Source: an uncultured beta proteobacterium
GTDB lineage: Bacteria > Pseudomonadota > Gammaproteobacteria > Burkholderiales > Burkholderiaceae_C
DNA length: 64,000 bases
Direction: 5' to 3'
Assembly (NCBI GenBank): GCA_903876735.1
Contig: CAIRAW010000054.1
Span: 1 to 64,000, forward strand
Part shown: positions 416-32,130 of the stretch, one piece after another
How the letters are laid out: each line of letters starts with the position of its first letter
Numbering within the stretch: the stretch's first letter is position 1
Notes under the pieces: model-generated
Seen by the model: the letters and a program-made list of their open reading frames with translations, nothing else
What the model was told of the DNA's origin: nothing
Databases searched by the model: none
Program-made: the position numbers and the translations under genes

Positions 416-979
416 TCAGTGAAGACTGACAACGCCGCTGTCAAGAGCGCGATAAATTGTCGCCTTGCTCAGTTGATACTCAGCCATGATTTCAACGATC
501 TTTTTGCCATCGGTGCGACTTTGGCAAATGTCTTTGACTTGATTTTCAGTGAGCGCTTTTTTTCTGCCGAATTGAACGCCCTTGCGCTTAGCTATGACGA
601 TCCCATCAGTCTGACGCTCTTTGCGTAGATCATTCTCAAATGCTGCGATGGCACCGAGCATCGTAACAAGCAGCATTCCTGAAGCCGTTGCTGTATCAAT
701 CTTTTGATCAATGACATGCAGCTTGACTTGTTTCTTTTCAAGCGAATTCAAAATATTCAACAGATCACGAGTCGAGCGAGCCAAGCGATCCAACTTCGTG
801 ATGACAAGAACATCACCATCACGAACATAGTCAAGACAGAGCGCAAGCTGTTCGCGTTTCTCAGTGGTTCGCGCTGATTGCTTTTCTTGAAATACTCGAT
901 TGCAGTCTTTCAGCTTGTCTAATTGAACATCAAGCGACTGACCATAAGAGCTAACTCGCGCATAACCAATCTGTGCCAT
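416..979 (-). CDS. Serine recombinase, resolvase/invertase family
   Basis: This 187-aa protein is a small serine recombinase. Its N-terminal catalytic domain (about residues 1-138) opens with the YARVSS motif holding the nucleophile Ser10, followed by the conserved ITKLDRLARS segment. A C-terminal helix-turn-helix (about 146-181) matches the resolvase DNA-binding domain. The length is typical of Tn3-type resolvases and DNA invertases. A GGAG-like ribosome site lies just upstream of the ATG. The region upstream (993-1086) carries inverted GTCTCA/TGAGAC motifs that look like resolvase subsites. The role is probably resolution or inversion within the mobile element. Resolvase and invertase cannot be separated from sequence alone. 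Confidence 0.93.
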   Translation of the reverse strand: MAQIGYARVSSYGQSLDVQLDKLKDCNRVFQEKQSARTTEKREQLALCLDYVRDGDVLVITKLDRLARSTRDLLNILNSLEKKQVKLHVIDQKIDTATASGMLLVTMLGAIAAFENDLRKERQTDGIVIAKRKGVQFGRKKALTENQVKDICQSRTDGKKIVEIMAEYQLSKATIYRALDSGVVSLH

Positions 980-992
980 TTCAATTTACTCC

Positions 993-1086
993 GTCTCAAA
1001 TGCTTCTTGACTATATGAGACTGAATTATGAAGCATAAAATGAGACACTGTCAACCGAGAATAATCGCGTTTTTAAATCCGTCTCA
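993..1086. promoter_or_regulatory. Putative res (resolvase-binding) site
   Basis: Four copies of one 6-bp motif lie upstream of the resolvase gene: GTCTCA at 993-998, TGAGAC at 1016-1021 and 1041-1046, and GTCTCA at 1081-1086. The first two form an inverted pair spanning 29 bp, close to the size of a resolvase subsite. Position and arrangement fit a res site that also acts as operator. Binding itself is inferred. Confidence 0.5.
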
Positions 1087-1190
1087 AAAAGTAAACAATA
1101 AGAAGCGCACCTCGTAATGTTTCAGTGGACATTGAATAAGATGCGAACGGCAGTTGAAACGATGACATGATCAGAAAATGATCAGTGCAA

Positions 1191-1218
1191 TTAAAAAAGC
1201 CCACATTGCGTGTGCTTT
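1191..1218 (-). terminator. Rho-independent terminator, minus strand
   Basis: Read on the minus strand, an imperfect hairpin AAAGCACAC-GCAAT-GTGGGCTTT is followed by a T-run. It lies just past the stop of the minus-strand gene at 1227-1565. Confidence 0.6.
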
Positions 1219-1226
1219 CGAGTTGA

Positions 1227-1565
1227 TCAGCGGCCTATGTTGGCTATTACTTCGACTATCTCTTCCGTGGAGTATATTTGCTCATTATGGACAAACAATC
1301 GAATCCACCTATTTTTCGGCTTCCATTCATACCACAAACATTCGACCTCAACGGTGCGCTTGCCTTTGACGATGATACCTTGTGTTTTTGAATCAACCAC
1401 CGCGAATTTTCCCGTCACGACTGCATTTCTGATTGAGGCATTTACAACATCAATCACATTGCGACCTTTAGTCACTTCCTTCCATGCGATTGCCTTGGCA
1501 AGCTTATCGGTGTGCGGTGCTTCTCTTGGGAAAGTTGATCCGTCCTTGGATTGAGTTATTGCCAT
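1227..1565 (-). CDS. Hypothetical protein of the integrative element
   Basis: This 112-aa protein was not recognised. It starts at an ATG with a GGAG site 8 bases upstream and ends at a good terminator, so it is probably a real gene. It is basic and rich in Lys, Val and Ile, with no membrane segment or signal peptide and a Trp-rich patch (WYEWKPKNRWIRLF) near residue 85. It lies between the resolvase and the H-NS family gene, all on the minus strand. The upstream sequence resembles that of the H-NS family gene, which may mean shared regulation. Confidence 0.65.
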   Translation of the reverse strand: MAITQSKDGSTFPREAPHTDKLAKAIAWKEVTKGRNVIDVVNASIRNAVVTGKFAVVDSKTQGIIVKGKRTVEVECLWYEWKPKNRWIRLFVHNEQIYSTEEIVEVIANIGR

Positions 1566-1619
1566 TGATTTGTCTCCACATGAAAGTTTTAGGATTTATC
1601 GTGCCATTCCACACATGGC

Positions 1620-1642
1620 AGAGCCCACATTGTGTGGGCTCT
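1620..1642. terminator. 10-bp stem hairpin, possible terminator
   Basis: A perfect 10-bp inverted repeat (AGAGCCCACA / TGTGGGCTCT) with a 3-base loop lies just past the stop of the minus-strand H-NS family gene. No strong T-run follows on either strand, so it may instead protect mRNA ends. Confidence 0.4.
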
Positions 1643-1665
1643 ATTGCTTGATCAGCTTTGTCCGT

Positions 1666-1962
1666 CTATGCGATCAAGAATTTTGTTCTGTCTTGGTTAA
1701 CAATCCATAACGGTACTTTTCCACGACCAGTCCAAGTCTTGCCACTCACGGGATCTCGGTATTTAGCTGCGACTTTGCCAATTTTTGCGCGAATTTTCTT
1801 TGTGCCGCGAGTCGTGCCGAAGATGTCGCTCTTAGTCAGACCGTTTTCCGCGATCAGTGCAATCACTTTGGCGATGGCATCGGCATGTTCAACTTGACGC
1901 ACTTCATCAATTTGCTTTGCAAGTGCCACTTGCTGTGCCATCAGTTCTTTGAGGGTTGCCAT
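1666..1962 (-). CDS. H-NS histone-like family protein
   Basis: This 98-aa protein has the layout of beta-proteobacterial H-NS family proteins: an N-terminal helical dimerisation part (about 1-45) and a C-terminal DNA-binding domain (about 65-95) with the signature KYRDPVSGKTWTGRGKVPLW. Such proteins bind AT-rich DNA in the minor groove and silence foreign genes. An AAGGAAA ribosome site precedes the ATG. Being encoded in an AT-rich element, it may limit the element's cost or modulate host silencing. The second H-NS-like gene of the window (27090-27410) has the same C-terminal motif but a different N-terminus. Confidence 0.9.
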   Translation of the reverse strand: MATLKELMAQQVALAKQIDEVRQVEHADAIAKVIALIAENGLTKSDIFGTTRGTKKIRAKIGKVAAKYRDPVSGKTWTGRGKVPLWIVNQDRTKFLIA

Positions 1963-2010
1963 TTGTTTTCCTTTTATTAGAAGTTTTAGATTATATGGTG
2001 CCGAAATAGA

Positions 2011-2727
2011 TCAGCTTGGAAATTTGCCCATGGCCACATTAGCGATCAATTGCTGCGCTTCTTTCAAATAACGAAGTACGGCAGAAATGGCTGTGGCGCT
2101 TGCAAGAACATTAATTTTGTCAGCATCAACTTCAGCGCCACCTGTGAAAAATGGGAAGGGTAACGGATCGATCTTTCTGTTGGCATTCTTCAGTCGCTCT
2201 GTGCGATCTAAATAGAACTTTCGAACTGCAGCCAACAACTGACGTCCTTTTAAAGGACTTCGCTTGCCACTTGCCTTTTCAATTTCATCAATCAGTTTGC
2301 GATTGATGTCGTAGGTGTGGAGCCATCCACGGTAGGTCGAAAACCGAAGCTCCACGCTGTCATTTACGCGCAAACCCTTGGCCGTGCGTACGGGTGTGTG
2401 CTTGAGATCGATCAGCAATCGTCTGAGCTTGTTCGCAGCGTCCGTACTCGTAAGCGACTTGGGTACGGAAACGAGGTAGGCATTCTTGTCGCTGCGAGTG
2501 GCAGCGCAAACTATGGCGACATCGCCATCACCGAGCTGTATGGCGTCGCTGCCAATCTCGCGCCACCAACGGTCAAAGGCATAGCTACCCACATCGCCCC
2601 AACTCACATACAGCTTGCGATTGACTGTCACTGACTCGTCAGCGAGGGCTCGCTTCAGAAACTCAAACCAAAGTCTGTATGCCTCTTTCGTCTCTGAACG
2701 CTTGATTCTTGGTGGTGTGGTTGTCAT
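2011..2727 (-). CDS. Hypothetical protein of the integrative element
   Basis: This 238-aa soluble protein was not recognised. The start at 2727 gives the sequence MTTTPPRIKR. An in-frame ATG 24 codons further upstream exists but would add a poor extension. The N-terminal part has spaced aromatic motifs (YRLWFEFLKRA and, later, WGDVGSYAFDRWW) of a kind I associate with plasmid and island proteins of unknown role. The C-terminal half is basic. The coding sequence contains the middle copy of the 15-bp near-palindrome (2244-2258). The ribosome site is weak. The gene is divergent from the plus-strand gene at 3081 across a 353-base regulatory gap. Confidence 0.65.
   Translation of the reverse strand: MTTTPPRIKRSETKEAYRLWFEFLKRALADESVTVNRKLYVSWGDVGSYAFDRWWREIGSDAIQLGDGDVAIVCAATRSDKNAYLVSVPKSLTSTDAANKLRRLLIDLKHTPVRTAKGLRVNDSVELRFSTYRGWLHTYDINRKLIDEIEKASGKRSPLKGRQLLAAVRKFYLDRTERLKNANRKIDPLPFPFFTGGAEVDADKINVLASATAISAVLRYLKEAQQLIANVAMGKFPS
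2244..2258. repeat. 15-bp near-palindrome, copy 2
   Basis: GTCCTTTTAAAGGAC lies inside a coding region and is closest to a perfect palindrome of the three copies (see 260-274 and 4574-4588). Confidence 0.55.
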
Positions 2728-3080
2728 GTTCAATATGGAACAAATGAATATGACACGATTATCATGGCATTTATATCGAAATGTCAATAATAAACTCATT
2801 CATTAGTATGAAAATTCAATGTAGGATAAAATGATATCTTCAGTTAATATAGTTTTGCGCGTGAAAATAGTAATTAGAAGTTGATAACCAACTCACTCAT
2901 TATTATTTAAATGCTATAAGTCGTATACTGATAGTTCATTAGTTGACATGGATTACAAATACGAATAATAAGAAGAGGTTGATAACTGACTCGCTCATTA
3001 TCAATTAAATCGGTTTAGGAGTAAAGTAGAGTCTGAATCAACGGTGATTCAAAAATGTTAAATTAACTTAAAGGTAAATC
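2728..3080. promoter_or_regulatory. AT-rich divergent regulatory region with 33-bp repeats
   Basis: No gene lies in these 353 bases. Two direct 33-bp repeats, 2880-2912 and 2978-3010, agree at 28 of 33 positions. Both start GTTGATAAC and end with TTTAAAT or ATTAAAT. They are 98 bp apart start to start. They flank a perfect -35-like TTGACA (2943-2948) with a weak -10 (TAATAA, 2966-2971). Operators controlling the downstream pair of genes, or iterons of a replication origin, would both fit. Confidence 0.55.
2943..2971 (+). promoter_or_regulatory. Candidate sigma-70 promoter
   Basis: TTGACA at 2943-2948 and TAATAA at 2966-2971 are separated by 17 bases and point toward the gene at 3081. The -35 is perfect and the -10 is weak. 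The second 33-bp repeat would overlap the transcription start, which fits a repressor operator. Confidence 0.4.
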
Positions 3081-3851
3081 ATGGCTTCTAAAGCAAAAAA
3101 CAACGCAACTATCACCTCGTCTTTGCGTACTCGTATTGAGCAAATCAGCATTAATCGTGAAACTTGGGAGAATTCAGTTTATGTTGCCTCTAATGAGAAG
3201 TTGTATTCTATCATTGGCGATTGCTTGAGTCTTTATTATGAGTTGGTCAATGGCACTGATATCAAGGCAAAAAAGAAAGGACTTGAGGATTATATTAATA
3301 TAAAAGGTTATAAGTTCAAAGACTCAACTGCACTGAGTGGAAAGATCATTCGTTGCGTGTTTGGTGATCGTGATCGTCGTCGTCTGTCTACTTATCATAT
3401 TGCACTTCGAGTGGCAATCGCTGACAAGTGGGATGTGGCTGATGTGGCCAAGAAGATCTCTGTCTATGGGGGCATTCAAGAAATCTCTATGCGTAAAAAA
3501 GGTGGTCTGAGTGCTGCTGATCGTGCTGCGCAAACGAAGGATGCTGTTATGAGTCTGACTGTCGCTACGCTGCAATGTAAGAATCTACAAATGAATGCTG
3601 AGCATGTTGGAGAAAATGCAATTGCATTTATGACGCAAGAGGCTAATGGAACTTATAGCGTGCACTTTGTAATGCAAAGTACCACAGCGCAAAACGCGGC
3701 GTTGGCTGCTTACTTCTCTGCGAATAAGGAAAAGCTGAGCAAGAAAGCTGAAGCTGTCAAGGTTGTTGAGAAAAGCAAAGCAAAGACTGAATTGATTAAC
3801 AACGCCGTTGCTGCTGCTAATGATAGCAAACTTTTTGACAAAGCTGCTTGA
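3081..3851 (+). CDS. Hypothetical protein of the integrative element
   Basis: This 256-aa protein was not recognised. It is basic and soluble, with a Lys/Ala-rich C-terminal tail (about 205-256) likely to be helical. It starts at an ATG preceded by AAAGG and has AT-rich codon use unlike the core genes. It is followed after 56 bases by the AAA ATPase, probably in one transcript ending at the terminator 4593-4616. Position upstream of a clamp-loader-like gene suggests a replication or maintenance role, but nothing in the sequence proves this. Confidence 0.75.
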   Translation: MASKAKNNATITSSLRTRIEQISINRETWENSVYVASNEKLYSIIGDCLSLYYELVNGTDIKAKKKGLEDYINIKGYKFKDSTALSGKIIRCVFGDRDRRRLSTYHIALRVAIADKWDVADVAKKISVYGGIQEISMRKKGGLSAADRAAQTKDAVMSLTVATLQCKNLQMNAEHVGENAIAFMTQEANGTYSVHFVMQSTTAQNAALAAYFSANKEKLSKKAEAVKVVEKSKAKTELINNAVAAANDSKLFDKAA

Positions 3852-3907
3852 TTAATACTTAAGGCACATTTAGTGTGATACAACTTTTTAAATACTAAGG
3901 ATTTATT

Positions 3908-4567
3908 ATGATTGAAGAAAAAAACTACACACCTCAAACTTTGGCAGAATGTGTAATTGCCGATGTGAATGGAAGAAATGTATTAAAAAACATTATCAGT
4001 GGTAAAATCTCGTTTCCGTCTATCAAGTGCGGAATTATTTTGCATGGCGTATGGGGAACGGGAAAGACGACTTTAGCAAGGCTATTGCCTGAGCTATTTG
4101 AGATTGCACGTGGTGGGGATACCGCACATTATGATTTTTATGCGTGCGCTCAAGGACAGAACGGAGTGTCGTTGATTAATTTGATTACCAATTCTACTAA
4201 TTTAGTAAGTTTCAATCACAGTGGCTTGCACTATGTGATTTTGGATGAATTGGACAACTTGACTGATGCCGCGAGAGCTTCGCTTAAGGCGATCATGAAC
4301 GGTAGGCATGTTATTTTCATCATGACCACGAATAATTTGAGTGCCATTGATATGGGAATTCAAAATCGCAGCTATATCATTGATATGAATGCCGCGCCTC
4401 ACTCTGAGTGGCTTCCCTTGGTCCGTCGTGTTATTTCAAGTTTTGGCGCAACGGTACCATCTGACGCAGTATTGCTGCCACTTATTGCTGCTTGCGATGG
4501 TTCTGCTCGCGAAATAATAAGTGCTGCTATGGAAGTGGCGATCAATCAAGATTTGGAGGTCACTTGA
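3908..4567 (+). CDS. Clamp-loader-like AAA ATPase
   Basis: This 219-aa protein is a compact AAA+ ATPase. Walker A is GVWGTGKTT (about 47-55), Walker B is VILDELDNL (about 110-118), sensor 1 is IFIMTTNN (about 136-143), and an Asn-Arg-Ser (153-155) sits where RFC-type loaders carry the Ser-Arg-Cys arginine finger. The pattern resembles clamp-loader small subunits such as T4 gp44 and archaeal RFC more than DnaX, and the protein is shorter, with no collar domain. A role in replication or plasmid-like maintenance of the element is inferred. It follows an unrecognised gene by 56 bases and ends 26 bases before a strong terminator. Confidence 0.75.
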   Translation: MIEEKNYTPQTLAECVIADVNGRNVLKNIISGKISFPSIKCGIILHGVWGTGKTTLARLLPELFEIARGGDTAHYDFYACAQGQNGVSLINLITNSTNLVSFNHSGLHYVILDELDNLTDAARASLKAIMNGRHVIFIMTTNNLSAIDMGIQNRSYIIDMNAAPHSEWLPLVRRVISSFGATVPSDAVLLPLIAACDGSAREIISAAMEVAINQDLEVT

Positions 4568-4573
4568 ATGATT

Positions 4574-4588
4574 GTCCTTTTAACGGAC
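4574..4588. repeat. 15-bp near-palindrome, copy 3
   Basis: GTCCTTTTAACGGAC lies between the ATPase stop codon and its terminator. It is the exact reverse complement of the copy at 260-274. Confidence 0.6.
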
Positions 4589-4592
4589 TTAC

Positions 4593-4616
4593 AGAGTGCT
4601 TCGGCACTCTTTTTTT
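4593..4616 (+). terminator. Rho-independent terminator with UUCG loop
   Basis: A 7-bp perfect stem AGAGTGC-TTCG-GCACTCT closed by a UUCG tetraloop is followed by seven T residues. It ends the two-gene unit 3081-4567. Confidence 0.9.
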
Positions 4617-4905
4617 GTCTCGACATAAACCCATTACCATCTTGGCATCCATTTTGAACAAGATTGTCCACAGAGCCGTGCTCCGCACGCCTCTGTGTCA
4701 AGACCGCAAACCGCGCCGCAATCGTGCCACGCACGAATGCCCTCGCTGAAACCTCCAACGGAAGCCCCCACAAAGCCCCCTACAGCGTCACGCAAGCCCA
4801 AACAGCAGCGACACTGCTTTCGCCATGCTTCAGACGCTTGTGGGCGTGATTTTGGTGAGCGTCAACACTGAGTCGTTAGTCGTCTACGGTACAATCAACC
4901 ACAAC
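4617..4905. other. Intergenic segment upstream of tRNA-Ser
   Basis: I see no gene here. Composition is more GC-rich than the element genes to the left, as if this piece travelled with the tRNA gene from another chromosome. A TACAAT at 4890-4895, ten bases before the tRNA, is a likely -10 for it. Confidence 0.5.
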
Positions 4906-4993
4906 GGAGAGATGGCAGAGTGGCCGAATGTACCTGACTCGAAATCAGGCGTACCGCAAGGTACCGTGGGTTCGAATCCCACTCTCTCCGCCA
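4906..4993 (+). tRNA. tRNA-Ser(CGA)
   Basis: This is a complete 88-nt class II tRNA with encoded CCA. The acceptor stem pairs GGAGAGA (4906-4912) with TCTCTCC (4983-4989), followed by discriminator G and CCA. The anticodon stem CCTGA/TCAGG encloses the loop CTCGAAA with anticodon CGA at 4940-4942, reading UCG. The long variable arm GTACC-GCAA-GGTAC and the T-loop GTTCGAAT confirm tRNA-Ser. It lies inside the element, convergent with the integrase gene. A 5' fragment of a near-identical tRNA gene is at 6356-6402 on the other strand. Confidence 0.97.
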
Positions 4994-5042
4994 CTTCATT
5001 GCTATCTATTCGATAGTGTCACTTCCTACACATTGTGCAGAT

Positions 5043-6236
5043 TCAGTAGTCCCAACCCTCGACTTTGTTCCCCACTCGATTGATATTGCGTAGCATTTGT
5101 GCGCCCAAATGCCGTGCATACGATTCTTGAATCACGGCCACTGACGTTCGACAGTTGTTGGCTATTTCATAAATCGGAACGCCATTGAGCAAGCGAAAAC
5201 AGATATAGGTCGCTCTGAGCGAGACTGAATCACGCCTCGACGGCGGATTCGTCTTCGATATCTTCAAATCGGCTTTCACCAATATCTTGTTAAGCATCGT
5301 TCGGTGATGGATCAGAAAAAGTGGCTTGTCGCACTTGCTTGGCTCCTTGATGGCGCGTCGTTCGATGATGCGGCTAAACGGCGCGACAGCGCCGTAGAAG
5401 CTCTGACAACTTCCCGTTCCTCGCTTGCCCTTGACGTTGCTGATCATCAAAATTTCTTTGGCTGTCAGTTGCTCTTTGACAACCTTCACGTCGGAGACCT
5501 TGAGATTTTTCATTTCACCAACACGCATGCCTGTGTTGACCGCGAAAATCACGTAGTCATAGAGTTCCATCGCATGCTCGTAAAGCAGTCTGTCCCTCTT
5601 TTGCAGCTTTTTTGCGTGAGCCAAGATGGCACGATGAAGCTTGTTGTATTCGGCAGAATTGAACCATGGCCGCGGTGAATCGATTCGCCGCGCCGTGTAT
5701 TCGTCCTTGAAAACGGGCAGCTCTTTGATGTAGCCAAGCTTGTAAGCTTGATTCAGCACGACACGAATGGCGTTCTTGTACTGATGCAGCGTCCCTCGCT
5801 TGATCAGTGGATATTCTTTCACCATGTCCTCTTTGAACTTGTGCCAAGTCGTGTTGTCGATGGTGATGACGGGCATCTTTTTGAAGTACGGCATGATGCG
5901 CGACCTCATGATTCCGTCGATGCCATCAAGTGTTTTTTGACTGCGAATGCCTCGCGTGACAAGTCCCTTGTAGGCTGTCAGCGCATCTTCGGCCAACTTG
6001 TCAAATGCGTGTTTCGGTGATGCGATCTGACCGCTTGCGATTTCGTTCTGTTTTTTGAAGTACCACTGACTCGCAATGGCGTCGGCAGCGTCGCTGTTGA
6101 CTTGCTTCGTCGAAGTGCGAAGGTACTTGCCTTTGAAATGAAATCCACCCCACCAATACGGCGATCCATCACGCATGAAAACGTGAACTTTACCTTCGAG
6201 AATGGTGTGCGTTGGGTGTGACTTTTCAGCGTTCAT
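5043..6236 (-). CDS. int: Tyrosine integrase
   Basis: This 397-aa phage-type integrase has a SAM-like core-binding part (about 75-185) and a catalytic domain (about 195-380). Visible catalytic residues are Arg238 in NTGMRVGE, a beta-strand Lys near 269-271, Arg341 in VSLRATY, and the nucleophile Tyr373 in IQESYARH. The box II His that usually precedes Arg341 by three positions is Val here, a departure seen in some subfamilies. The gene ends 49 bases from the complete tRNA-Ser, and its start lies 120 bases from the truncated tRNA-Ser. It very probably recombined the element into the anticodon region of the resident tRNA gene. Confidence 0.93.
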   Translation of the reverse strand: MNAEKSHPTHTILEGKVHVFMRDGSPYWWGGFHFKGKYLRTSTKQVNSDAADAIASQWYFKKQNEIASGQIASPKHAFDKLAEDALTAYKGLVTRGIRSQKTLDGIDGIMRSRIMPYFKKMPVITIDNTTWHKFKEDMVKEYPLIKRGTLHQYKNAIRVVLNQAYKLGYIKELPVFKDEYTARRIDSPRPWFNSAEYNKLHRAILAHAKKLQKRDRLLYEHAMELYDYVIFAVNTGMRVGEMKNLKVSDVKVVKEQLTAKEILMISNVKGKRGTGSCQSFYGAVAPFSRIIERRAIKEPSKCDKPLFLIHHRTMLNKILVKADLKISKTNPPSRRDSVSLRATYICFRLLNGVPIYEIANNCRTSVAVIQESYARHLGAQMLRNINRVGNKVEGWDY

Positions 6237-24493: not shown

Positions 24494-26005
24494 ATGGATC
24501 TGATCGCAAATCTCTCGCTCGGTTTTGGCGTGGCCTTCACGCCGATCAACCTGATGTACGCCTTCATCGGCTGCTTTCTGGGCACCGTCATTGGCGTGCT
24601 GCCTGGTATCGGTCCGGTGGCCACCATTGCCATGCTGCTGCCCGCCACCTATGCGCTGCCACCGGTGTCGGCCCTGATCATGCTGGCCGGCATTTACTAC
24701 GGCGCGCAATATGGCGGCTCCACCACTGCCATTCTGGTCAACCTGCCGGGTGAGACCTCGTCCGTGGTGACGGTGATTGACGGCTACCAGATGGCACGCC
24801 AGGGCAGAGCCGGTCCGGCGCTGGCGGCTGCCGGTCTGGGTTCCTTCTTCGCCGGTTGCGTCGGCACCCTGGTGCTGGCGGCGTTCGCCGTGCCTCTGAC
24901 CGAAGTCGCCTTCAAGTTCGGCCCGGCCGAATACTTTTCGCTCATGGTGCTGGGCCTGGTCGGCGCGGTTGTGCTGGCCTCAGGTTCCCTGATCAAGGCC
25001 GTCGGCATGATTTTGCTGGGCCTGCTGATGGGCCTGGTCGGCACCGATGTGAACTCGGGTGTGGCACGCTTCAGTTTTGATGTGCCGGAGTTGACCGACG
25101 GCATCGGCTTCATCGTCATCGCGATGGGTGTTTTTGGCTACGGCGAGATCATCATGAACCTGGGCAAGCACGAGAGCGAGCGCGAAGTGTTCACGGCCAA
25201 CGTCACAGGCTTGTGGCCAACCAAGGAAGACTTCAAGCGCATGATACCGGCCGTGCTGCGTGGCACGGCGCTGGGATGCGTGCTCGGTATTTTGCCCGGT
25301 GGCGGTGCGGTGATGGCGGCGTTTGGTGCCTACACCATTGAAAAGAAGACCAAGCTGCAACCCGGTGAAGTGCCGTTTGGCAAGGGCAACATTCGAGGCG
25401 TGGCTTCGCCTGAATCGGCCAACAATGCCGCTTCGCAAACCTCCTTTATCCCGCTGCTGACACTGGGCATTCCGCCCAATGCGGTGATGGCCCTGATGGT
25501 GGGCGCGATGACGATCCACAACATCCAACCCGGCCCGCAGGTCATGACCAGCAACCCCGAACTGTTCTGGGGTCTGATCGCCTCGATGTGGATCGGAAAC
25601 GCGATGCTGATCATTTTGAACCTGCCACTGATCGGGATCTGGATCAAACTGCTGAGCGTTCCCTACCGCTGGCTGTTTCCGGCGATTGTTCTGTTCTGCG
25701 CCATCGGTGTTTATTCGACCAACAACAACACCTTTGACATCTGGTTGGTGGGTGTGTTCGGCTTCATCGGCTATCTGTTCATCAAACTCGGGGCCGAGCC
25801 GGCACCGCTGCTCTTGGGCTTCATCCTGGGGCCGATGATGGAAGAAAATCTGCGTCGCGCCCTGCTGCTCTCACGTGGCGACTGGAGCGTGTTTGTAACG
25901 CGCGGCCTGTCGGCCAGCCTGCTGGCGGTGGCGGCCTTCCTGCTCGTCATCGTGCTGCTGCCGTCGATCAAGCAGAAACGTGAAGAGGCGTTTGTCGAGG
26001 ACTGA
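24494..26005 (+). CDS. tctA: Tripartite tricarboxylate transporter large permease TctA
   Basis: This 503-aa permease has about twelve membrane segments and the family glycine-rich motifs GVLPGIGPVATIAML near residue 35 and GILPGGGAVMAAFGAY near residue 260. It is the transport channel of the TTT system and works with TctB and a Bug receptor. Its terminator, starting 9 bases after the stop, has been split by the 6-kb transposon that follows. Confidence 0.96.
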   Translation: MDLIANLSLGFGVAFTPINLMYAFIGCFLGTVIGVLPGIGPVATIAMLLPATYALPPVSALIMLAGIYYGAQYGGSTTAILVNLPGETSSVVTVIDGYQMARQGRAGPALAAAGLGSFFAGCVGTLVLAAFAVPLTEVAFKFGPAEYFSLMVLGLVGAVVLASGSLIKAVGMILLGLLMGLVGTDVNSGVARFSFDVPELTDGIGFIVIAMGVFGYGEIIMNLGKHESEREVFTANVTGLWPTKEDFKRMIPAVLRGTALGCVLGILPGGGAVMAAFGAYTIEKKTKLQPGEVPFGKGNIRGVASPESANNAASQTSFIPLLTLGIPPNAVMALMVGAMTIHNIQPGPQVMTSNPELFWGLIASMWIGNAMLIILNLPLIGIWIKLLSVPYRWLFPAIVLFCAIGVYSTNNNTFDIWLVGVFGFIGYLFIKLGAEPAPLLLGFILGPMMEENLRRALLLSRGDWSVFVTRGLSASLLAVAAFLLVIVLLPSIKQKREEAFVED

Positions 26006-26014
26006 TTCGGTATC

Positions 26015-26041
26015 AGCCCACAAGAAAAAGGCTCCTGCGGG
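26015..26041 (+). terminator. Left half of the disrupted tctA terminator
   Basis: AGCCCACAAGAAAAAGGCTCC plus the loop bases pair almost perfectly with the segment at 32110-32130. Together they made a long hairpin with a T-rich 3' arm before the transposon entered. Confidence 0.85.
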
Positions 26042-26064
26042 CAAGCCCCTCTCTTCCCGTGTTG
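26042..26064 (+). repeat. Left terminal inverted repeat of transposon
   Basis: This 23-bp repeat is the exact reverse complement of 32081-32103. Similarity continues inward with a T-run after a one-base shift. Confidence 0.93.
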
Positions 26065-26111
26065 TTTTTTGCAACCTGAAATTTAGGGACTTTGCCCCCA
26101 AGTAGGCACCC

Positions 26112-26139
26112 CAAGACACCCTCGCCCGAGGGTGTCTTG
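26112..26139 (-). terminator. 13-bp stem hairpin after mrr
   Basis: A perfect 13-bp inverted repeat (CAAGACACCCTCG and its complement) with a 2-base loop lies 17 bases past the mrr stop. The only T-rich flank is on the plus side, so it may act in either direction or shield the transposon genes from outside transcription. Confidence 0.6.
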
Positions 26140-26155
26140 CTTTATACCAAGCTAA

Positions 26156-27076
26156 TTAGGACTCTTCAAAGTAGTCCATATCCAGTTTCTTGACGATATA
26201 CGTGGTCGTTGGTGATACGCCCACATTGAATTCAAGCATTAAATTCGCCAGTTCTTCGCCGTCAATCAATACAACCTTTTGAGGTAAATGTTTCACGTAT
26301 TGCTTTGCTTCATCTGTAAATCGTGAAGTGGTAAGCATTACGCCTTTTGAAGCACTTTTACCCACCAGACTACCGACAAAATTCTGTACATGTGGACGAC
26401 CAACGGGATTAGTCCAGCGTTTGGCTTGAAGATAGATTAAATCTAAACCCAATCGGTCTTCTTTAATGACCCCATCAATGCCTTCATCACCACTTTGACC
26501 AATTGCTTTACCTGCGTCTATTCTTGAACCGCCGTAGCCCATGGCTACCAATACATCAACCACCAGTTGTTCAAAGAATGCAGGTGTAGCAAGTAAAACT
26601 TGCTGTAATAACGACAATGCCAAATCTTTGCGTAATGATTGATAGCTGGATTCCAAACGCTCTTCGGGCGTTTCATCATTTACTATCAATACTTCGCTAT
26701 TAGTGGTTACATCTTGCGTCGAATCATTAGGACTGGCTTGGTGAAAGGTTTGAAACTCTGGATACTGTTTAAGCGATTTAACATCCAGCTTTACGGGCTT
26801 ACTTGCCAATAAATCTAAACCCCGTTGTGTAATCTTAAAAATTCCTCGGCCAGTGGATTCAACCAATAAAGCTTTGCCAAAATAAGTTCGAGTCCATGCA
26901 ATGCGATTCATGAACTTGGTTTGTTTGCCACTTGGAAGGATTTCCGCTAATTCATCAGGTGTCAAATTGAATTTAACTGCCAAATGGTCAGATACATCAT
27001 TCTTTGTATGTATATTGCCATCGGCAATGTAAGCAAGAAATGGAAGAAACATTTCTTGAAATGTTGGCATGGTCAT
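26156..27076 (-). CDS. mrr: Mrr-type restriction endonuclease
   Basis: This 306-aa protein matches the E. coli Mrr type IV restriction enzyme in length and layout. It has an N-terminal winged-helix Mrr_N domain (about 5-90), a linker, and a C-terminal PD-(D/E)XK nuclease domain with Asp201 in DEGIDGVI and Gln217-Ala-Lys219 in LQAKRW, followed by a conserved TTSRFT segment. Mrr cleaves DNA bearing foreign methyl groups. It is the last gene of a minus-strand unit with an H-NS family gene and a fused restriction-methylase. Carriage beside a methylase is notable, since Mrr can attack methylated DNA. Confidence 0.93.
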   Translation of the reverse strand: MTMPTFQEMFLPFLAYIADGNIHTKNDVSDHLAVKFNLTPDELAEILPSGKQTKFMNRIAWTRTYFGKALLVESTGRGIFKITQRGLDLLASKPVKLDVKSLKQYPEFQTFHQASPNDSTQDVTTNSEVLIVNDETPEERLESSYQSLRKDLALSLLQQVLLATPAFFEQLVVDVLVAMGYGGSRIDAGKAIGQSGDEGIDGVIKEDRLGLDLIYLQAKRWTNPVGRPHVQNFVGSLVGKSASKGVMLTTSRFTDEAKQYVKHLPQKVVLIDGEELANLMLEFNVGVSPTTTYIVKKLDMDYFEES

Positions 27077-27089
27077 GAAAGACCCCTAT

Positions 27090-27410
27090 CTATTTGATTA
27101 AGAGGTCTTCCAGCTTCCCGCCTTTGGCGATGTGTTCTTTCACCCATAGAGGCGTTGCACCCTTACCACCCGCCCAAGTCTTCTCGGGATTAGCGGGGTT
27201 GGCATATTTAGGGGGCAATTTGGCCTTTATGGGCTTTGTCTTGGGGGTCGCTATACCCAAACCCAATTCGGAGGCTGTAAAGCCGTATTTAGCCACCGTG
27301 GCCTTTGTGGCGGTGAGAGCCGCTTGCCTGCTCTCTGCCAATAGAGCCTGTCGCTCGGCTTCCAGGCTGGCAATTTTCTTATCTAACTCCGCTACTTTGG
27401 CATCGGTCAT
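27090..27410 (-). CDS. H-NS histone-like family protein on the transposon
   Basis: This 106-aa protein has an N-terminal coiled coil (about 3-40) and a C-terminal H-NS DNA-binding domain with the signature KYANPANPEKTWAGGKG followed by PLWV. It is likely a nucleoid silencer of AT-rich DNA. GGAG precedes its ATG by 6 bases. It lies between the restriction-methylase (73 bases upstream) and mrr (13 bases downstream), so the three probably share a transcript, and it may keep the restriction genes quiet. Confidence 0.9.
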   Translation of the reverse strand: MTDAKVAELDKKIASLEAERQALLAESRQAALTATKATVAKYGFTASELGLGIATPKTKPIKAKLPPKYANPANPEKTWAGGKGATPLWVKEHIAKGGKLEDLLIK

Positions 27411-27483
27411 CTATGACTCCATTGGTTAAAGGGCAATGGAGGGGATGATACACGGTATAGAAGGCAGCTTAATAGCTTTATCG

Positions 27484-29736
27484 TCAAAGTAATTTAGATA
27501 AACTCTTTTGAACAGAATCTTCGGCGATTTTGAGTTGCTTTCTAGCCTTTTCAAGTTTATCCAAATTCTTTTTTACAAATGCATCTTGCACATTTTTTGG
27601 TATGTATTCAATGTAATATTCGCCAAAATCCTTCTTTGCTATGGTCAATTTTGATGCCCCATCCGCCAAATCGGATACTATTTGTTTTCTTATCACGGAG
27701 AAATAGAAATTATAGAATTGCATATTTATAGGGTACGTTGTGTTTAATGACTCCAACACAAAACACAAATTGCTTGCATTGAATTTTCCATTAACGTAAT
27801 GAGTTCTCCCCAAAGAACCTGCTGCACTAGCTGCATACACAATGGCCTCAGCCTCATGCGAATATGAAGAGTGAGTTTTCCATTCTTCAGAAGCAGTTAT
27901 AAAAGGATAGTCTCCACAATCATCACACTCATTGCTGGGCAGAATGCCATCTTGACTTTTGAATAAATCATTGACTTTTACCATAGCATAACCTGATGTA
28001 CTATTAGCCTGAGATTGAATGCCAGCACAATTAAGAATACTATCTTTGTATATTTTTCTTTTCACGCATGTGTTTGCAATCTCGTTACCATTCGTAATTG
28101 CATCAAATATTTTCTGTTCAAGAGAACCCCATCCATTGTGCTTATCAATCTTTCCTTTGTGTTGAATGCTTACAAAGCCATCGTCTTCTAAGTTATAAAA
28201 CAGAACATCATCATTTGGATTGTGTGGTGTTTTGGTAAAGCCAAAAATAGCTGTATTGACCGACCGATTTTGCTCGGAAAACAATTTATATGGCATTTTG
28301 ATTATGAAATCCAGTTTTGCTATTTTCAAGATTTTATCAGTGTAATTGCCGTGATTCTTCGTCAAAGTTGGAGTTGGCATTATGATTATAAGTTTTCCAT
28401 TTGGCTCCAAATAGTCCAATGCTTGCTTGGTAAATTTAATGGAATTATTATTTTCGTATGGTGGATTAATGATAACCTTGGTAGGTTTCATGTTCTTAAT
28501 ATATTTTAAGAGGTCACCGTCACTCCCGTTGACAGTGCCGTCTTGTGCCTCATTTAGTAGGCTGCTTCGATATAATAGATTAGTTCTACCATCACCATGC
28601 AGAAACAGATTTGAGCATGCCAAAGAAAAGAGAACGGAGTCAATTTCGAATCCTATGAGTTGCTTCTCCTTAATATGATCAATTTTCACAGCATTACCCA
28701 AGGCCAATTTAGTCATGACTTCCATAGACTCCATAAGGAAGCCACCTGAACCCGTACACGTATCCAATACAACATCGTCCTTAGTTAATCTCGCAAGTTT
28801 GACCATTAAGCCTTTGATGTGATCTGGCGTCAGTATGATGTTTTTATTTTCAGCTTTCCCCGCCCTTTCCAAAAATATCTTATAAGCACGACCCAAAATG
28901 TCTTGTTTTTCGTCGTTTTTGAAAGGCAAGAATATTTTGGTCTCTATCGTATTAATAATCTTTTTGTATTCATCAAGTGAAAAATCAATGTTCTTTATGA
29001 ATGAGAATTTATCATGCCAATTAAATGCCTTTGACAAATTATTTATTTTGCTTTTAAGCTGACCTGCAATGGCTTGAATGATTGCAGCATTTAAATTGAA
29101 TGCTTCTAACACAATTGCTTTTGTCGTAGCCAATTCTTCATCAGATGGCTTTTGTATGCCCTTATATGTGCTGCGGAAATTGTTGCTATTCAATGCAATC
29201 ATAATTCCAGAAAAGAATAGACTTCTGTCGCTATCTCGGACCTTGTTTCCGTCGTGAAACTGCTTATTCAGTGATTTTAAAACTGTAATTAATGCCTCTG
29301 TTGTTATGAGTTCTCCGCATATTATTTTTTTATAAGACTTCTCAAGGTCAACAATTTTCAATAGCACGTCTGCAATATTCGGAAATGTATTTATCTCACT
29401 TTGTAAATAGCGTTTATAGTAGTACGTAATCTTTAAGTCATCGTCCTTTTGACCAGATATCGCAATTCCAATAATATCCTTTTGTATATTATTTGTTGCC
29501 ATATAGAATTTCACTTCTTTTTCGGCAGCTTTATGATTTGTAGCCTTTGCTTCCACAACAATCGAGAAATCACCTGAGTCTTTAAAAAAGTCTGGATAGC
29601 CCTTTGAGGCCGTTCCTCTTTTTGACATAAAACCATAGATGTCAGGAATGGCAGAGGCTTCAATAAATGAATCGTCTTTGTGAAATGTTCTAAATATGTT
29701 TGATGTTATTGTCTCGCTAGATTTTGCCTTTGCCAT
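27484..29736 (-). CDS. Fused restriction-modification enzyme, type IIG-like
   Basis: This 750-aa protein combines three parts. The N-terminus (about 30-110) looks like a PD-(D/E)XK nuclease, with Asp49 in GYPDFF and Glu62-Ala-Lys64 in VVEAKAT. The middle (about 280-560) is an N6-adenine methyltransferase of the HsdM type with the SAM motif DTCTGSGGF (325-333) and catalytic NPPY (424-427). The C-terminus (about 590-740) resembles one HsdS target-recognition domain with a terminal helix. This is the layout of single-chain type IIG enzymes. It is divergent from the small gene at 29883, and a palindrome lies 17 bases upstream of its start. The recognition sequence is unknown. Confidence 0.88.
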   Translation of the reverse strand: MAKAKSSETITSNIFRTFHKDDSFIEASAIPDIYGFMSKRGTASKGYPDFFKDSGDFSIVVEAKATNHKAAEKEVKFYMATNNIQKDIIGIAISGQKDDDLKITYYYKRYLQSEINTFPNIADVLLKIVDLEKSYKKIICGELITTEALITVLKSLNKQFHDGNKVRDSDRSLFFSGIMIALNSNNFRSTYKGIQKPSDEELATTKAIVLEAFNLNAAIIQAIAGQLKSKINNLSKAFNWHDKFSFIKNIDFSLDEYKKIINTIETKIFLPFKNDEKQDILGRAYKIFLERAGKAENKNIILTPDHIKGLMVKLARLTKDDVVLDTCTGSGGFLMESMEVMTKLALGNAVKIDHIKEKQLIGFEIDSVLFSLACSNLFLHGDGRTNLLYRSSLLNEAQDGTVNGSDGDLLKYIKNMKPTKVIINPPYENNNSIKFTKQALDYLEPNGKLIIIMPTPTLTKNHGNYTDKILKIAKLDFIIKMPYKLFSEQNRSVNTAIFGFTKTPHNPNDDVLFYNLEDDGFVSIQHKGKIDKHNGWGSLEQKIFDAITNGNEIANTCVKRKIYKDSILNCAGIQSQANSTSGYAMVKVNDLFKSQDGILPSNECDDCGDYPFITASEEWKTHSSYSHEAEAIVYAASAAGSLGRTHYVNGKFNASNLCFVLESLNTTYPINMQFYNFYFSVIRKQIVSDLADGASKLTIAKKDFGEYYIEYIPKNVQDAFVKKNLDKLEKARKQLKIAEDSVQKSLSKLL

Positions 29737-29752
29737 ATGTCATCCCTGTTCT

Positions 29753-29769
29753 TTTGGTTTAATACCAAA
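29753..29769. promoter_or_regulatory. Palindrome, putative operator of the restriction gene
   Basis: TTTGGT-TTAAT-ACCAAA is a perfect 6-bp inverted repeat 17-33 bases upstream of the restriction-methylase start, in the divergent promoter region. It is well placed to bind the small regulator-like protein encoded at 29883. Confidence 0.45.
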
Positions 29770-29882
29770 TTACAGGAATAAAAATTAAATGCAATAAATT
29801 CGGGGTCTATTTCACTATAAAACCTAACTATTTATTGCAGAAGTCTATGGTTCTGCTATAACAATCTATAAGAGGTATAGAA

Positions 29883-30107
29883 ATGAGCAAAAAACAAAGA
29901 CAAAAGAACATCAGCATGGACGAAGACCTGTTAACGCAGGTGGAAGCGTTATGCACCGTGCTACACACGAACTTCACCAATAAAACCAAGGAGCTATTGG
30001 TGAATTGGAAGATTGAAGAGTTAAATCGGCTTAAAGCCATTGCTCCTGAATTGCTTGCTGAATATCATCAGGAACTATTGAAAGCATCCAAGGAAGTCAC
30101 CTCGTAA
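29883..30107 (+). CDS. Small regulator-like protein (possible ribbon-helix-helix)
   Basis: This 74-aa basic protein was not recognised as a known family. Its N-terminal 45 residues (QKNISMDEDLLTQVEAL, then TNKTKELLVNWK) have the strand-helix-helix pattern of ribbon-helix-helix repressors, and the rest is helical. AGAGG precedes the ATG by 6 bases. It is divergent from the restriction-methylase and lies upstream of the transposase, a position typical of controller or repressor genes. The DNA-binding role is inferred. Confidence 0.6.
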   Translation: MSKKQRQKNISMDEDLLTQVEALCTVLHTNFTNKTKELLVNWKIEELNRLKAIAPELLAEYHQELLKASKEVTS

Positions 30108-30247
30108 GAGGCTCTAATACCCATTGAATTCAGTAGGAAATTGTCAATAGAAATGGAGCGTAGCTCCAAATAAAAACAATGAATTCTTATTGCATTAAAT
30201 CCCAATTCGCTTTATGATTGCGGTGTTTTAATGACACGGCGAAACGA

Positions 30248-31972
30248 ATGGTTAAAGTGAGCAAGGCATGGATTCCAAGTGCCTTTAATGGTATTCAATA
30301 CAATACCTGTAAGAATCCGAAGTGTGAGAACTACGGATTGGACCCCGAGCTTCACCCCAAGGCGTATCGCATTACCTACGGCGGTAAAGCGTTGCCTTTA
30401 CTCCAATGCGTTAAATGTGGCGAAGTGCCACCCATTAAAAGCAATCAAGGCATTGATGAAGAAGTGAAGCGTCTTATTGCCCATACGATGGGCGACAAGC
30501 CCCTTTCCTGCCTTAATGAAGAATGTCTTAACCATGGGGTGCCCGTGGGCACCAAGAAGGCTTATAGAGCCTTTGGCAAAACCGCCAGCGGTACACAACG
30601 GTATCGCTGTAATGCGTGTTTAAAGACGGTATCCAAGCCCAAAGCTTCCAGTGGACAACGGGATACCTATCACAACCTCGACATTTTTAAAATGTTGGTC
30701 AACAAAGTGCCATTAAGCCGTATTGTTGATATGTTGGGTATTTCGTGGTCTCTGTTGTATAACCGTATTGATTACATCCATGCTCAATGCATGCAATTCG
30801 CTGGCAATCGGGAAAGCAAGCTTTCCACAATGAACATTGAACGCCTTAACATTGCGATTGACCGCCAAGAACACGTTATTAACTGGTCCGAGCGTAAAGA
30901 CAAGCGTAATGTGGTGTTATCCGCTATTACAAGCGTTGATAACACAACCCATTATGTATTCGGCGTACATCCGAACTTTGACGGTAATGCGGATAGGAGT
31001 GTTATTGAGGCCTTGGCCGTTTCCAATGGCGATTCCGCATTGGCGGCTCCGCTGCGGGAAACCGCACGGTATTGGACCCAAGCGGATTACACCGATTCGG
31101 TAAACAATAGCGTAAGTCGCCCCTTTAAAACGGGCAACTTAATGTCCAACGTCAAGAAGAAATACGTGGCATTGGAGAGTCGTGAAGACGTTGAAAACTT
31201 CGACGACAAAACAGAAGACGAACAATTGCCCAGCTATGGATTACAAATCCATAGCGAGTACACGATGATTGCCCACTTCTACTTTTTAAAGGCTTTAATG
31301 CCCAATGTGAAGAAGTGGCGTTTCTTTCTGGACCAAGAATCAGGCATTCGGGCTGCTTGCTTGGCCGTATTCAAGGATGAAGTCCAAGCACATAAAGCCG
31401 AAGCGTTTTATGTATCCATCAATAAACGGATGACGGTGGATGAAAAACGCCAAATCACAGGTGCTTCAAAAGCACTATTGAGGGAGCGTAAAGCCGACTT
31501 CCCCAATAAGACGGACAATGAAATCAAGTTGGAATTGTTAAAGGAAGCCATATCCAATGTTAGTCACATTGGATTATGGAAGGATAGGTGGGTAAAGCAT
31601 CCTTTACCCGATATGTCGGAGCCCGAAAAGGCCATGTGCTGGATTACAGAACATAAGGCCTTTGATGAAGACCATGTGGCATGGTTGTATAACAAAGCCA
31701 CGCTCCACGGAGTGGATAGCTTCTTTGAGAAGGTTAGACGGCGTATATCGCTGTTTGAACGTGCCGTGCGTTCGTCTGCGAATGACGGACGTACATGGAA
31801 TGGTTACAGTGCCTATAACCCCGCCATGGTGGGCAAGTTGTTGGACATCTTCCGAGTGGTCCATAACTACATTGACGTTCGTAAGAAAGACGGCATAACC
31901 ACAACGGCGGCTATGCGTCTCGGACTGGCTAATGCACCCCTGTCCTATAAGGACGTGCTGTATTACGAATAA
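30248..31972 (+). CDS. IS1-like transposase with tandem zinc ribbons
   Basis: This 574-aa protein has two zinc ribbons of the form C-x4-C...C-x2-C (Cys 21/26/54/57 and 88/93/121/124). The second ends GTQRYRCNACLKT, as in IS1 InsA. A helix-turn-helix follows (about 146-175). The remainder looks like a DDE-type nuclease, with candidate acidic residues Asp205 (AIDRQEH), Asp362 (FFLDQESG) and Asp490 before SFFEKVRRR, the place where IS1 relatives have Glu. It is over twice the length of IS1 InsAB'. A TTG start 10 codons upstream is possible. The family assignment is supported by the 9-bp target duplication, but this is a divergent member. Confidence 0.8.
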   Translation: MVKVSKAWIPSAFNGIQYNTCKNPKCENYGLDPELHPKAYRITYGGKALPLLQCVKCGEVPPIKSNQGIDEEVKRLIAHTMGDKPLSCLNEECLNHGVPVGTKKAYRAFGKTASGTQRYRCNACLKTVSKPKASSGQRDTYHNLDIFKMLVNKVPLSRIVDMLGISWSLLYNRIDYIHAQCMQFAGNRESKLSTMNIERLNIAIDRQEHVINWSERKDKRNVVLSAITSVDNTTHYVFGVHPNFDGNADRSVIEALAVSNGDSALAAPLRETARYWTQADYTDSVNNSVSRPFKTGNLMSNVKKKYVALESREDVENFDDKTEDEQLPSYGLQIHSEYTMIAHFYFLKALMPNVKKWRFFLDQESGIRAACLAVFKDEVQAHKAEAFYVSINKRMTVDEKRQITGASKALLRERKADFPNKTDNEIKLELLKEAISNVSHIGLWKDRWVKHPLPDMSEPEKAMCWITEHKAFDEDHVAWLYNKATLHGVDSFFEKVRRRISLFERAVRSSANDGRTWNGYSAYNPAMVGKLLDIFRVVHNYIDVRKKDGITTTAAMRLGLANAPLSYKDVLYYE

Positions 31973-31992
31973 GGGGGCGTAGCCACCATGAC

Positions 31993-32022
31993 AAAGGGAG
32001 CCAGTTGGCTCCCTTGTTTTTT
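31993..32022 (+). terminator. Rho-independent terminator of the transposase gene
   Basis: A perfect 10-bp stem AAGGGAGCCA-GT-TGGCTCCCTT is followed by G and six T residues, 21 bases after the transposase stop. A second small hairpin (GCCTAC...GTAGGC, 32023-32040) follows. Confidence 0.9.
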
Positions 32023-32080
32023 GCCTACTTATTTGTAGGCTGGTTTAGACCCCATTCTTCGAGGGAGGCTTTGAAAAAAG

Positions 32081-32103
32081 CAACACGGGAAGAGAGGGGC
32101 TTG
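32081..32103 (-). repeat. Right terminal inverted repeat of transposon
   Basis: This 23-bp repeat is the exact reverse complement of 26042-26064. The target duplication TCCTGCGGG follows at 32104-32112. Confidence 0.93.
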
Positions 32104-32109
32104 TCCTGC

Positions 32110-32130
32110 GGGAGCCTTTTTTTGTGGGCT
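32110..32130 (+). terminator. Right half of the disrupted tctA terminator
   Basis: GGGAGCC followed by seven T and GTGGGCT pairs with 26015-26035. Without the transposon the two halves form a hairpin with a GGCTCC-TGCG-GGAGCC core and T-rich 3' arm. Confidence 0.85.

Follow-up and report, generated by a model that had tools for sequence, protein, structure and literature searches.

The 64,000-nucleotide stretch analyzed here, termed the window (from an uncultured beta proteobacterium; GenBank assembly GCA_903876735.1, contig CAIRAW010000054.1), contains a 6,062-bp transposon with five genes between inverted ends, which is one member of a wide, little-described transposon family. The key point of this element, absent from the first-pass annotation of the DNA, is in our opinion its target, an intrinsic terminator cut at the center. 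The window copy split the terminator of a tctA-like gene, and the targets across the family are mostly bidirectional intrinsic terminators with short stems, split at the dyad axis. It is very probable that the family transposase targets intrinsic terminators, with staggered joining of 9 bp (10 bp in some members) at the dyad axis between an A-tract and a T-tract. Landing inside a terminator suggests a new way in which a transposon can avoid damage to its host; such a landing place would be safe for the element, the presumed benefit being a target that leaves genes intact, and the target rule can be tested at base resolution.

The element, its insertion site and its relatives

The left terminal inverted repeat, CAAGCCCCTCTCTTCCCGTGTTG, occupies positions 26042-26064 on the forward strand and agrees with the family end consensus, and its exact reverse complement occupies 32081-32103 on the reverse strand, so that the perfect 23-bp repeats reported in the first-pass annotation are confirmed. 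The perfect 9-bp direct duplication claimed outside them is likewise present, with TCCTGCGGG at 26033-26041 and again at 32104-32112, as read in the sequence and as returned by a pair search. Among pairs of a 9-bp duplication and an inverted repeat in the region these ends score highest, with 24 of 25 terminal bases matching compared with 14 for the runner-up, and the end pattern (up to three mismatches) occurs at just these two places in the 3.9-Mb genome. The GC content is 0.59 directly left of the element compared with 0.35-0.48 within it, making the element AT-rich relative to its host.

The target is the terminator of a 503-aa host gene (24494-26005, forward strand), an open reading frame (ORF) that we take to encode a tripartite tricarboxylate transporter protein of the TctA type and whose orthologues in relatives have an intact terminator. 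Its stop codon lies 27 bp ahead of the left duplication. The left half of the split terminator, composed of an A-tract, GGC and the duplicated bases, is at 26025-26041, and the right half, AGCC followed by a T-tract, is at 32113-32123; both halves are kept, and the rejoined site folds as an intrinsic terminator. When the tctA 3' end was used as a query, matches of whatever strength were obtained in 40 of 60 genomes, among them the window's own, and the 14 best loci from other genomes were inspected. Two of them, L110 (90% identity) and L118 (79%), belong to the same genus and carry an uninterrupted terminator of similar sequence at the same place past the stop codon, which supplies the empty site that the first-pass annotation proposed to look for, here in other species. 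In the other 12 loci, L112 has an uninterrupted terminator of different sequence and L119 ends before the site.

Relatives of the transposase are found by tblastn in 128 of 72,556 plasmid records and 2 of 50,697 phage records, and a match is present in 4 of 274 genomes of the same class (a spread sample that includes the window's own genome). A profile scan of species genomes gave 107 relatives, and none was confirmed among 34 pattern matches in viral contigs. The 100 loci examined comprise the window, the best 80 of the 107 species-genome relatives, the 7 first plasmid and phage loci and 12 fetched later; L002-L007, which are short contigs or have interrupted genes, stand outside the end and target analysis. 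Both conserved ends and a duplication are present at 57 of the 100 loci (9 bp in 47, 10 bp in 10, with one mismatch in 5), corresponding to 55 different sites once 2 duplicates are dropped. The end consensus from 86 ends is CAAGCCGTTCACTTAAGGTGTTGAA, and the bounded elements range from 1.93 to 11.0 kb. The first-pass annotation had proposed a search for further copies with matching ends, and such copies are at hand: their ends are of one kind, their 9-10-bp duplications differ and their cargo varies. Among the matches listed, 34 of 40 plasmid records annotate the transposase merely as a hypothetical protein.

The 10-bp duplications occur at L033, L038, L039, L046, L067, L081, L092, L093, L098 and L102, and this label requires 6 changes on the transposase tree of bounded rows. 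One of the partner loci L028 and L029 is an alphaproteobacterium-binned contig in which the insertion and its flank are the same as in Thiocapsa roseopersicina, and it is probably mis-binned.

Terminators split at the dyad axis

Element ends were chosen from the ends and the duplication alone, and the target analysis is therefore blind to the target. Empty sites were rebuilt by rejoining the flanks at 55 unique sites (an earlier set of 38 exact 9-bp sites was extended once the 10-bp duplications were found) and compared with 79,234 control positions in the flanks and 7,948 positions in 3'-intergenic DNA. The 38-site and 55-site sets have the same layout, with an A-tract from -17 to -10, a GC-rich core and a T-tract from +10 to +17 relative to the duplication center. 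A stem score of at least 8 within 2 bp of this center is found at 33 of the 55 sites (60%) compared with 0.2% of any control positions and 1.25% of the 3'-intergenic positions (binomial p about 1e-48 against 1.25%), and at 31 of these 33 sites the hairpin axis is at most half a base from the duplication center. Scoring with a shifted center gives 31 sites at 0, 4 at -1, 9 at +1 and 0-1 at every larger shift tried. The proportion of A reaches at least 50% at -17 to -10 in 50 of the 55 sites (13.9% of any control, 21.5% of 3'-intergenic positions), and that of T reaches at least 50% at +10 to +17 in 42 (14.3% and 23.2%, respectively). Compared with control terminators, which require a perfect stem, are counted on both strands and are thus defined slightly differently from the sites, the distance of the T-run is more tightly set (standard deviation 1.5 bp at sites, 4.2 bp in controls) and an A-run together with a T-run is more frequent (28 of 30 sites, 55 of 167 controls). 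The subset of 44 sites that remains when mismatched duplications and the dfrG transposon Tn7491, a distant relative described below, are removed has 30 hairpins, 39 A-tracts and 34 T-tracts.

Hairpin and tracts are each enriched given the other: a centered hairpin is present at 25 of 32 both-tract sites compared with 5.5% of 1,822 both-tract control positions, and both tracts at 25 of 33 hairpin sites compared with 7.6% of 184 control hairpins (exact center only), so both features count. In the mechanism that we propose, the transposase would pick intrinsic terminators, and the staggered joining of 9 bp, or 10 bp in some members, would be centered on the dyad axis and fall between the A-tract and the T-tract placed approximately 10-17 bp to either side. 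The predicted mode of recognition is that the arrangement of A-tract, core and T-tract is read directly by the transposase, with the hairpin either adding to this signal or correlating with it. The main signal may come from the tracts, as suggested by the Tn7491 sites with tracts and without hairpins, by the other hairpin-less sites and by the half-sites at single-end loci.

A related explanation, which has a serious though not a leading claim, is that the enzyme reads just an A-tract, about 20 bp and a T-tract on duplex DNA and recognizes no structure, the hairpins appearing since no other sequence with this layout is as common as terminators. A tract of at least 50% is present on one or both sides at 51 of the 55 sites, the 19 hairpin-less sites average 0.62 A and 0.54 T compared with a control value of 0.25, and the Tn7491 sites mostly have tracts without hairpins. 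However, the share of centered hairpins among both-tract sites is far from the 5.5% of the both-tract controls, and at L073 a long hairpin is flanked by weak tracts, 0.25 on each side.

It is unlikely that the enzyme depends on the hairpin as such, whether extruded as a cruciform or formed in connection with transcription, as has been proposed for the stem-loop targets of IS1272. The centered stems at 33 of the 55 sites would fit this, and there is a precedent in IS1272 and IS1182, which reportedly target inverted repeats (stem-loops) rather than a fixed sequence (PMC5678879). On the other side, the hairpin is missing from 19 of the 55 sites and from 6 of the 8 Tn7491 sites, and IS1272 is described there as replacing the stem-loop with no duplication, whereas the insertions studied here leave the hairpin split in the middle and create a duplication of 9-10 bp, the duplication being found at 57 loci in all. 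Stem-loop replacement of the IS1182/IS1272 type does not fit the window element, in which duplications are present and both terminator halves are kept.

ORFs are present on both sides of 52 sites, of which 3 lie between divergent and 20 between convergent ORFs, and 34 lie at most 100 bp past the end of an ORF reading towards the site. The location outside open frames (23 of 55 sites) was dropped as a test in favor of ORF ends, as GC-rich DNA abounds in stop-to-stop frames of 100 codons, which make it uninformative. Selection against gene disruption is general and the gene-end setting agrees with it, but it is very improbable that the enzyme has no target preference and that terminators are just where insertions survive between genes, because survival could not explain a duplication centered no more than half a base from the hairpin axis at 31 of 33 hairpin sites, the loss of the hairpin signal upon a 2-bp shift, or the rise of centered hairpins from 1.25% of 3'-intergenic control positions to 60% of sites.

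A number of observations weigh against this reading or against the completeness of the family picture. No centered hairpin of score at least 6 is found in 19 of the 55 sites, L081 has neither tracts nor hairpin, the Tn7491 sites reach this score in 2 of 8 cases (with an A-tract in 8 of 8 and a T-tract in 7 of 8), and the half-sites of single-end loci are less clean (A-rich in 20 of 29, T-rich in 7 of 12). The end pair is not resolved at 43 of the 100 loci, many of which stop at contig ends, and eight loci (L021, L036, L043, L052, L082, L008, L010 and L095) have both ends with no matching 9-10-bp duplication. Many of the examined loci are metagenome-assembled. For the window copy, 10 of the 14 inspected relatives have other sequence at the site, the uninterrupted sites come from other species (90% and 79% identity) rather than sister strains, and the 3.9-Mb genome has a single copy of an element whose transposition is predicted.

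Transposase and named relatives

The transposase (584 aa with the TTG start as listed; 30218-31972, forward strand) has two zinc ribbons and, from alignment and a structure model, a predicted RNase-H-like core, and would cut and join by DDE chemistry. A hairpin followed by a T-run at 31994-32015 on the forward strand is the predicted terminator of its gene. Eight Cys residues, forming the two zinc ribbons, and D215 are invariant across 64 aligned transposases, in which D372 is kept in 61, D500 in 63 and E514 in 60. Two of the catalytic acids are likely D215 and D372, and the third may be either D500 or E514. In the IS256 family the third acidic residue stands in a motif of the type E-R-x-x-x-x-I-R, and D500 occupies the corresponding place here. 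The D500 position is an asparagine in Tn7491, and a seven-row alignment including Tn7491 has D215, D372 and E514 invariant and D500 and three of the eight zinc Cys not; the ambiguous third acid and the three Cys that Tn7491 does not keep count against the proposed mechanism. The ambiguity and the predicted nature of the activity leave room for the 584-aa protein as a passenger of an integrative island that is bounded by the inverted repeats and moved by another enzyme, but this is barely credible since ten bounded loci of 1.93-2.05 kb hold the transposase gene and no other ORF of at least 90 codons (L009, L011, L019, L028 = L029, L033, L039, L046, L053 and L071, nine distinct sites, the frame being interrupted in L071).

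The transposase belongs to an IS1/IS256-related yet unclassified family. It matches no Pfam family above cut-off, and membership of the IS1 family is not supported by the NCBIfam IS1 transposase model, which matches the N-terminal region at 2e-6 and 27.9 bits, far below the cut-off of 100. The InsA/IS1 zinc ribbon also stays below cut-off (Pfam PF03811, 12.9 compared with 26.1 bits; NCBIfam NF050000, 22.4 compared with 28), as does the N-terminal match to the IS256-type zinc domain of NCBIfam (20.7 compared with 27 bits), and the NCBIfam IS256 transposase models give no match at E up to 1. The structure model is confident, with a predicted local distance difference test score of 89.6, and its best match in the Protein Data Bank (PDB) is the ISCth4 transposase of the IS256 family (E 7.2e-4), with poor global superposition (TM-scores 0.26 and 0.35, root mean square deviation 17.5). 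Both IS1 and IS256 transposases are shorter than 584 aa. A PDB sequence search gave nearly all zinc-finger proteins among the best 60 of 138 matches, which were attributed to the zinc ribbons or to composition.

The closest named relative is Tn7491 (also printed Tn4791), a dfrG transposon of Staphylococcus, Enterococcus and Listeria for which ends, a 9-bp duplication and evidence of movement have been described, with a second copy between the convergent genes csbB and saeS (PMC10763498). It is represented here by L013, L014, L095-L102 and L106 and is of the same family as the window element, not the same element. The two have homologous transposases (tblastn E 7e-34 over 97% of the window query) with D215, D372 and E514 in common, perfect inverted ends (in Tn7491 over the 25 bp compared), 9-bp duplications (10 bp in L098, and 10 bp with a mismatch in L102) and sites bracketed by A- and T-tracts. 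They differ in that the Tn7491 transposase is 25.8% identical to that of the window, its ends begin TAAGTAG instead of CAAGCC, its sites mostly lack a centered hairpin, and its cargo is dfrG with a 98-aa ORF, whereas no dihydrofolate reductase is present among the five proteins of the window element. Phage records name the Tn7491 transposase an insertion element protein, as does PMC8638950, and the consulted parts of PMC5267571 and PMC8407400 contain nothing further on the transposon. The suggestion in the first-pass annotation of an undescribed transposon family is therefore upheld as far as the lack of a Pfam match and the distance from IS1 are concerned and falls short in that a distant member has already been named (PMC10763498).

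The word "terminator" is absent from the main text of the Tn7491 paper (PMC10763498), and the titles and abstract starts listed by searches of open-licence literature gave no report of a transposon or insertion sequence (IS) that targets terminators with a duplication. The distant Tn7491 branch carries dfrG between staphylococci, enterococci and listeria, and the tract rule could help to annotate those insertions. Tn7 inserts at attTn7, a harmless site at a gene end, which is one sequence-specific site reached through TnsD. The family described here likewise uses a harmless gene-end site, but across many unrelated terminators.

Restriction cargo and the exchangeable slot

From left to right, the window element encodes an Mrr protein, an H-NS-like protein and a 750-aa fusion, all on the reverse strand, followed by a 74-aa protein and the transposase on the forward strand. 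The Mrr-type (type IV) methyl-directed nuclease (306 aa, 26156-27076) matches Pfam Mrr_cat (2.3e-34) and Mrr_N (4.1e-28) and PADLOC mREase_IV (2.9e-90), and the H-NS-like protein (106 aa, 27090-27410) matches Pfam Histone_HNS (1.8e-12). The 750-aa protein at 27484-29736 is a type IIG-like restriction-methyltransferase with matches to N6_Mtase (1.3e-24) and the PADLOC type IIG model (1.2e-37) and, in residues 580-733, to a PADLOC specificity subunit (1e-7). The small 74-aa protein (29883-30107) is ribbon-helix-helix-like and a probable regulator, its match to Pfam ParG (E 0.0082, 16.7 bits) being below the cut-off of 21.4. The gene set listed in the first-pass annotation accordingly holds for the zinc-ribbon transposase, Mrr, the H-NS-like protein and the methylase of the fusion, while its regulator matches below cut-off and the nuclease part of the fusion is assigned from the type IIG match and an N-terminal PD...EAK motif seen by eye. 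The palindrome TTTGGTTTAATACCAAA at 29753-29769, a candidate operator in the divergent promoter region, occurs once in the window with up to two mismatches (0 of 100 shuffles). A perfect inverted repeat near the left end of the element (26115-26136), followed by TTGCTTT on the forward strand, is a possible internal terminator. Judged from the encoded proteins, the cargo is probably a defense module, a function that is predicted for the window element.

Two siblings are found in metagenome-assembled genomes of Sterolibacterium (L015) and Rhodoferax (L016). Their transposases are 93% and 74% identical to that of the window, respectively, and their Mrr proteins 96% and 95%; in L016 the H-NS-like protein is 69% identical and the 74-aa protein 69% over 54 aa. 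By blastn, L015 matches positions 116-1414 and 3896-6062 of the window element and L016 positions 1-1412 and 4062-6062. The left end of L015 was not found in the 364 bp of contig beyond Mrr, and its right end adjoins a terminator half. The greater similarity of the L016 Mrr compared with its transposase suggests recombination between elements. In DNA, the left 1.4 kb of L016 is 84% identical to the window element and the right part 71%. A DpdF-like gene at 41-1729 of L016 is a few kb from the Rhodoferax sibling, and the neighborhood may be a defense island.

The 2.3-2.5 kb between the H-NS gene and the regulator cannot be aligned among the siblings save for short matches in the promoter region. 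This slot has sharp edges, with 17 identical bases beside the H-NS gene and the start-codon region and TTTGGTTTAATACCAAA on the other side, the palindrome being identical in all three elements. L016 has a type IIG-like 812-aa enzyme in the slot that shares just a 33% methylase core with that of the window, and L015 has two genes for proteins of 355 and 253 aa for which neither Pfam nor PADLOC gave a match; an NPPY motif was read by eye in the 355-aa protein. The three siblings have in common a chassis of Mrr, the H-NS-like protein, the ribbon-helix-helix-like regulator and the transposase, and the slot, which adjoins the conserved divergent promoter region and palindrome, differs in gene content from one sibling to the next; how these genes are exchanged and regulated is conjectural. 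We hold with moderate confidence that the family homes on bidirectional terminators through dyad symmetry and tracts and that one branch is a dedicated defense carrier with a fixed chassis and a slot in which restriction-modification systems are swapped. The chassis of this branch would comprise the ends, the transposase, the ribbon-helix-helix regulator, the divergent palindrome, an H-NS-like silencer and Mrr, and restriction-modification genes would be swapped in the plug-in slot while the control region stays.

A DNA methyltransferase (Pfam) is present in 14 of 47 bounded elements outside the dfrG group, namely the window element, L016, L020, L024, L025, L027, L032, L034, L038, L040, L041, L058, L065 and L072, a count that excludes L015 because its slot genes have no match and its left end was not found. 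The methyltransferase is accompanied by a NotI-type nuclease in L020, a BsuBI/PstI-type nuclease in L027 and a specificity subunit in L024 and L025, and L034 has type III Res and Mod. Pfam was run one by one on 50 of the 66 cargo ORFs of at least 150 aa, and the PADLOC tally covers all 66, in which type I methyltransferase models match up to 8 family members, mad2 matches 7 and type IIG models match up to 5. The same tally of 113 of 206 flanking ORFs (taken by locus order from a listed set of 150, with two more from the window) lists 25 of 131 families, and none of these is a methyltransferase model of type I, II or IIG; the methyltransferase model mad2 has 3 matches and a type I nuclease model 1. 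Restriction genes in a compact transposon, regarded as unusual in the first-pass annotation, are carried inside the bounded unit and recur in the family. On the transposase tree, the restriction label requires 9 changes among the bounded rows together with L015, which was scored as carrying restriction genes; when the contrast is limited to the eight transposase-only rows, 7 changes are required (mean of shuffles 6.9). Restriction cargo is thus no clade trait and came and went several times. Restriction-modification systems move between genomes often without an obvious mover, and the family would be a vehicle for them. The movement of restriction genes within a genome has reportedly been linked to an IS; the family described here instead carries them within an element that has its own ends and encodes its own transposase.

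Among the remaining cargo are AbiEii (L031, L081), Fic (L049, L076), HipA (L073), DnaJ (L067) and metabolic genes (L057). The genome of Mariprofundus micogutta has two family members, L020 and L027, with different restriction systems. The bounded element of L057 (9885-20518, 10.6 kb) has 8 ORFs of at least 150 aa, of which the 4 scanned look metabolic rather than defensive and include an Fe-dependent alcohol dehydrogenase, a dienelactone-hydrolase-like protein and a carboxymuconolactone decarboxylase. Elsewhere in the window, an AT-rich region at 416-6236 resembles a second mobile element of the integrase type. It contains a tRNA-Ser(CGA) gene at 4906-4993 and, named by eye, a resolvase-like protein (416-979), a small clamp-loader-like ATPase (3908-4567) and a tyrosine-integrase-like protein (5043-6236).

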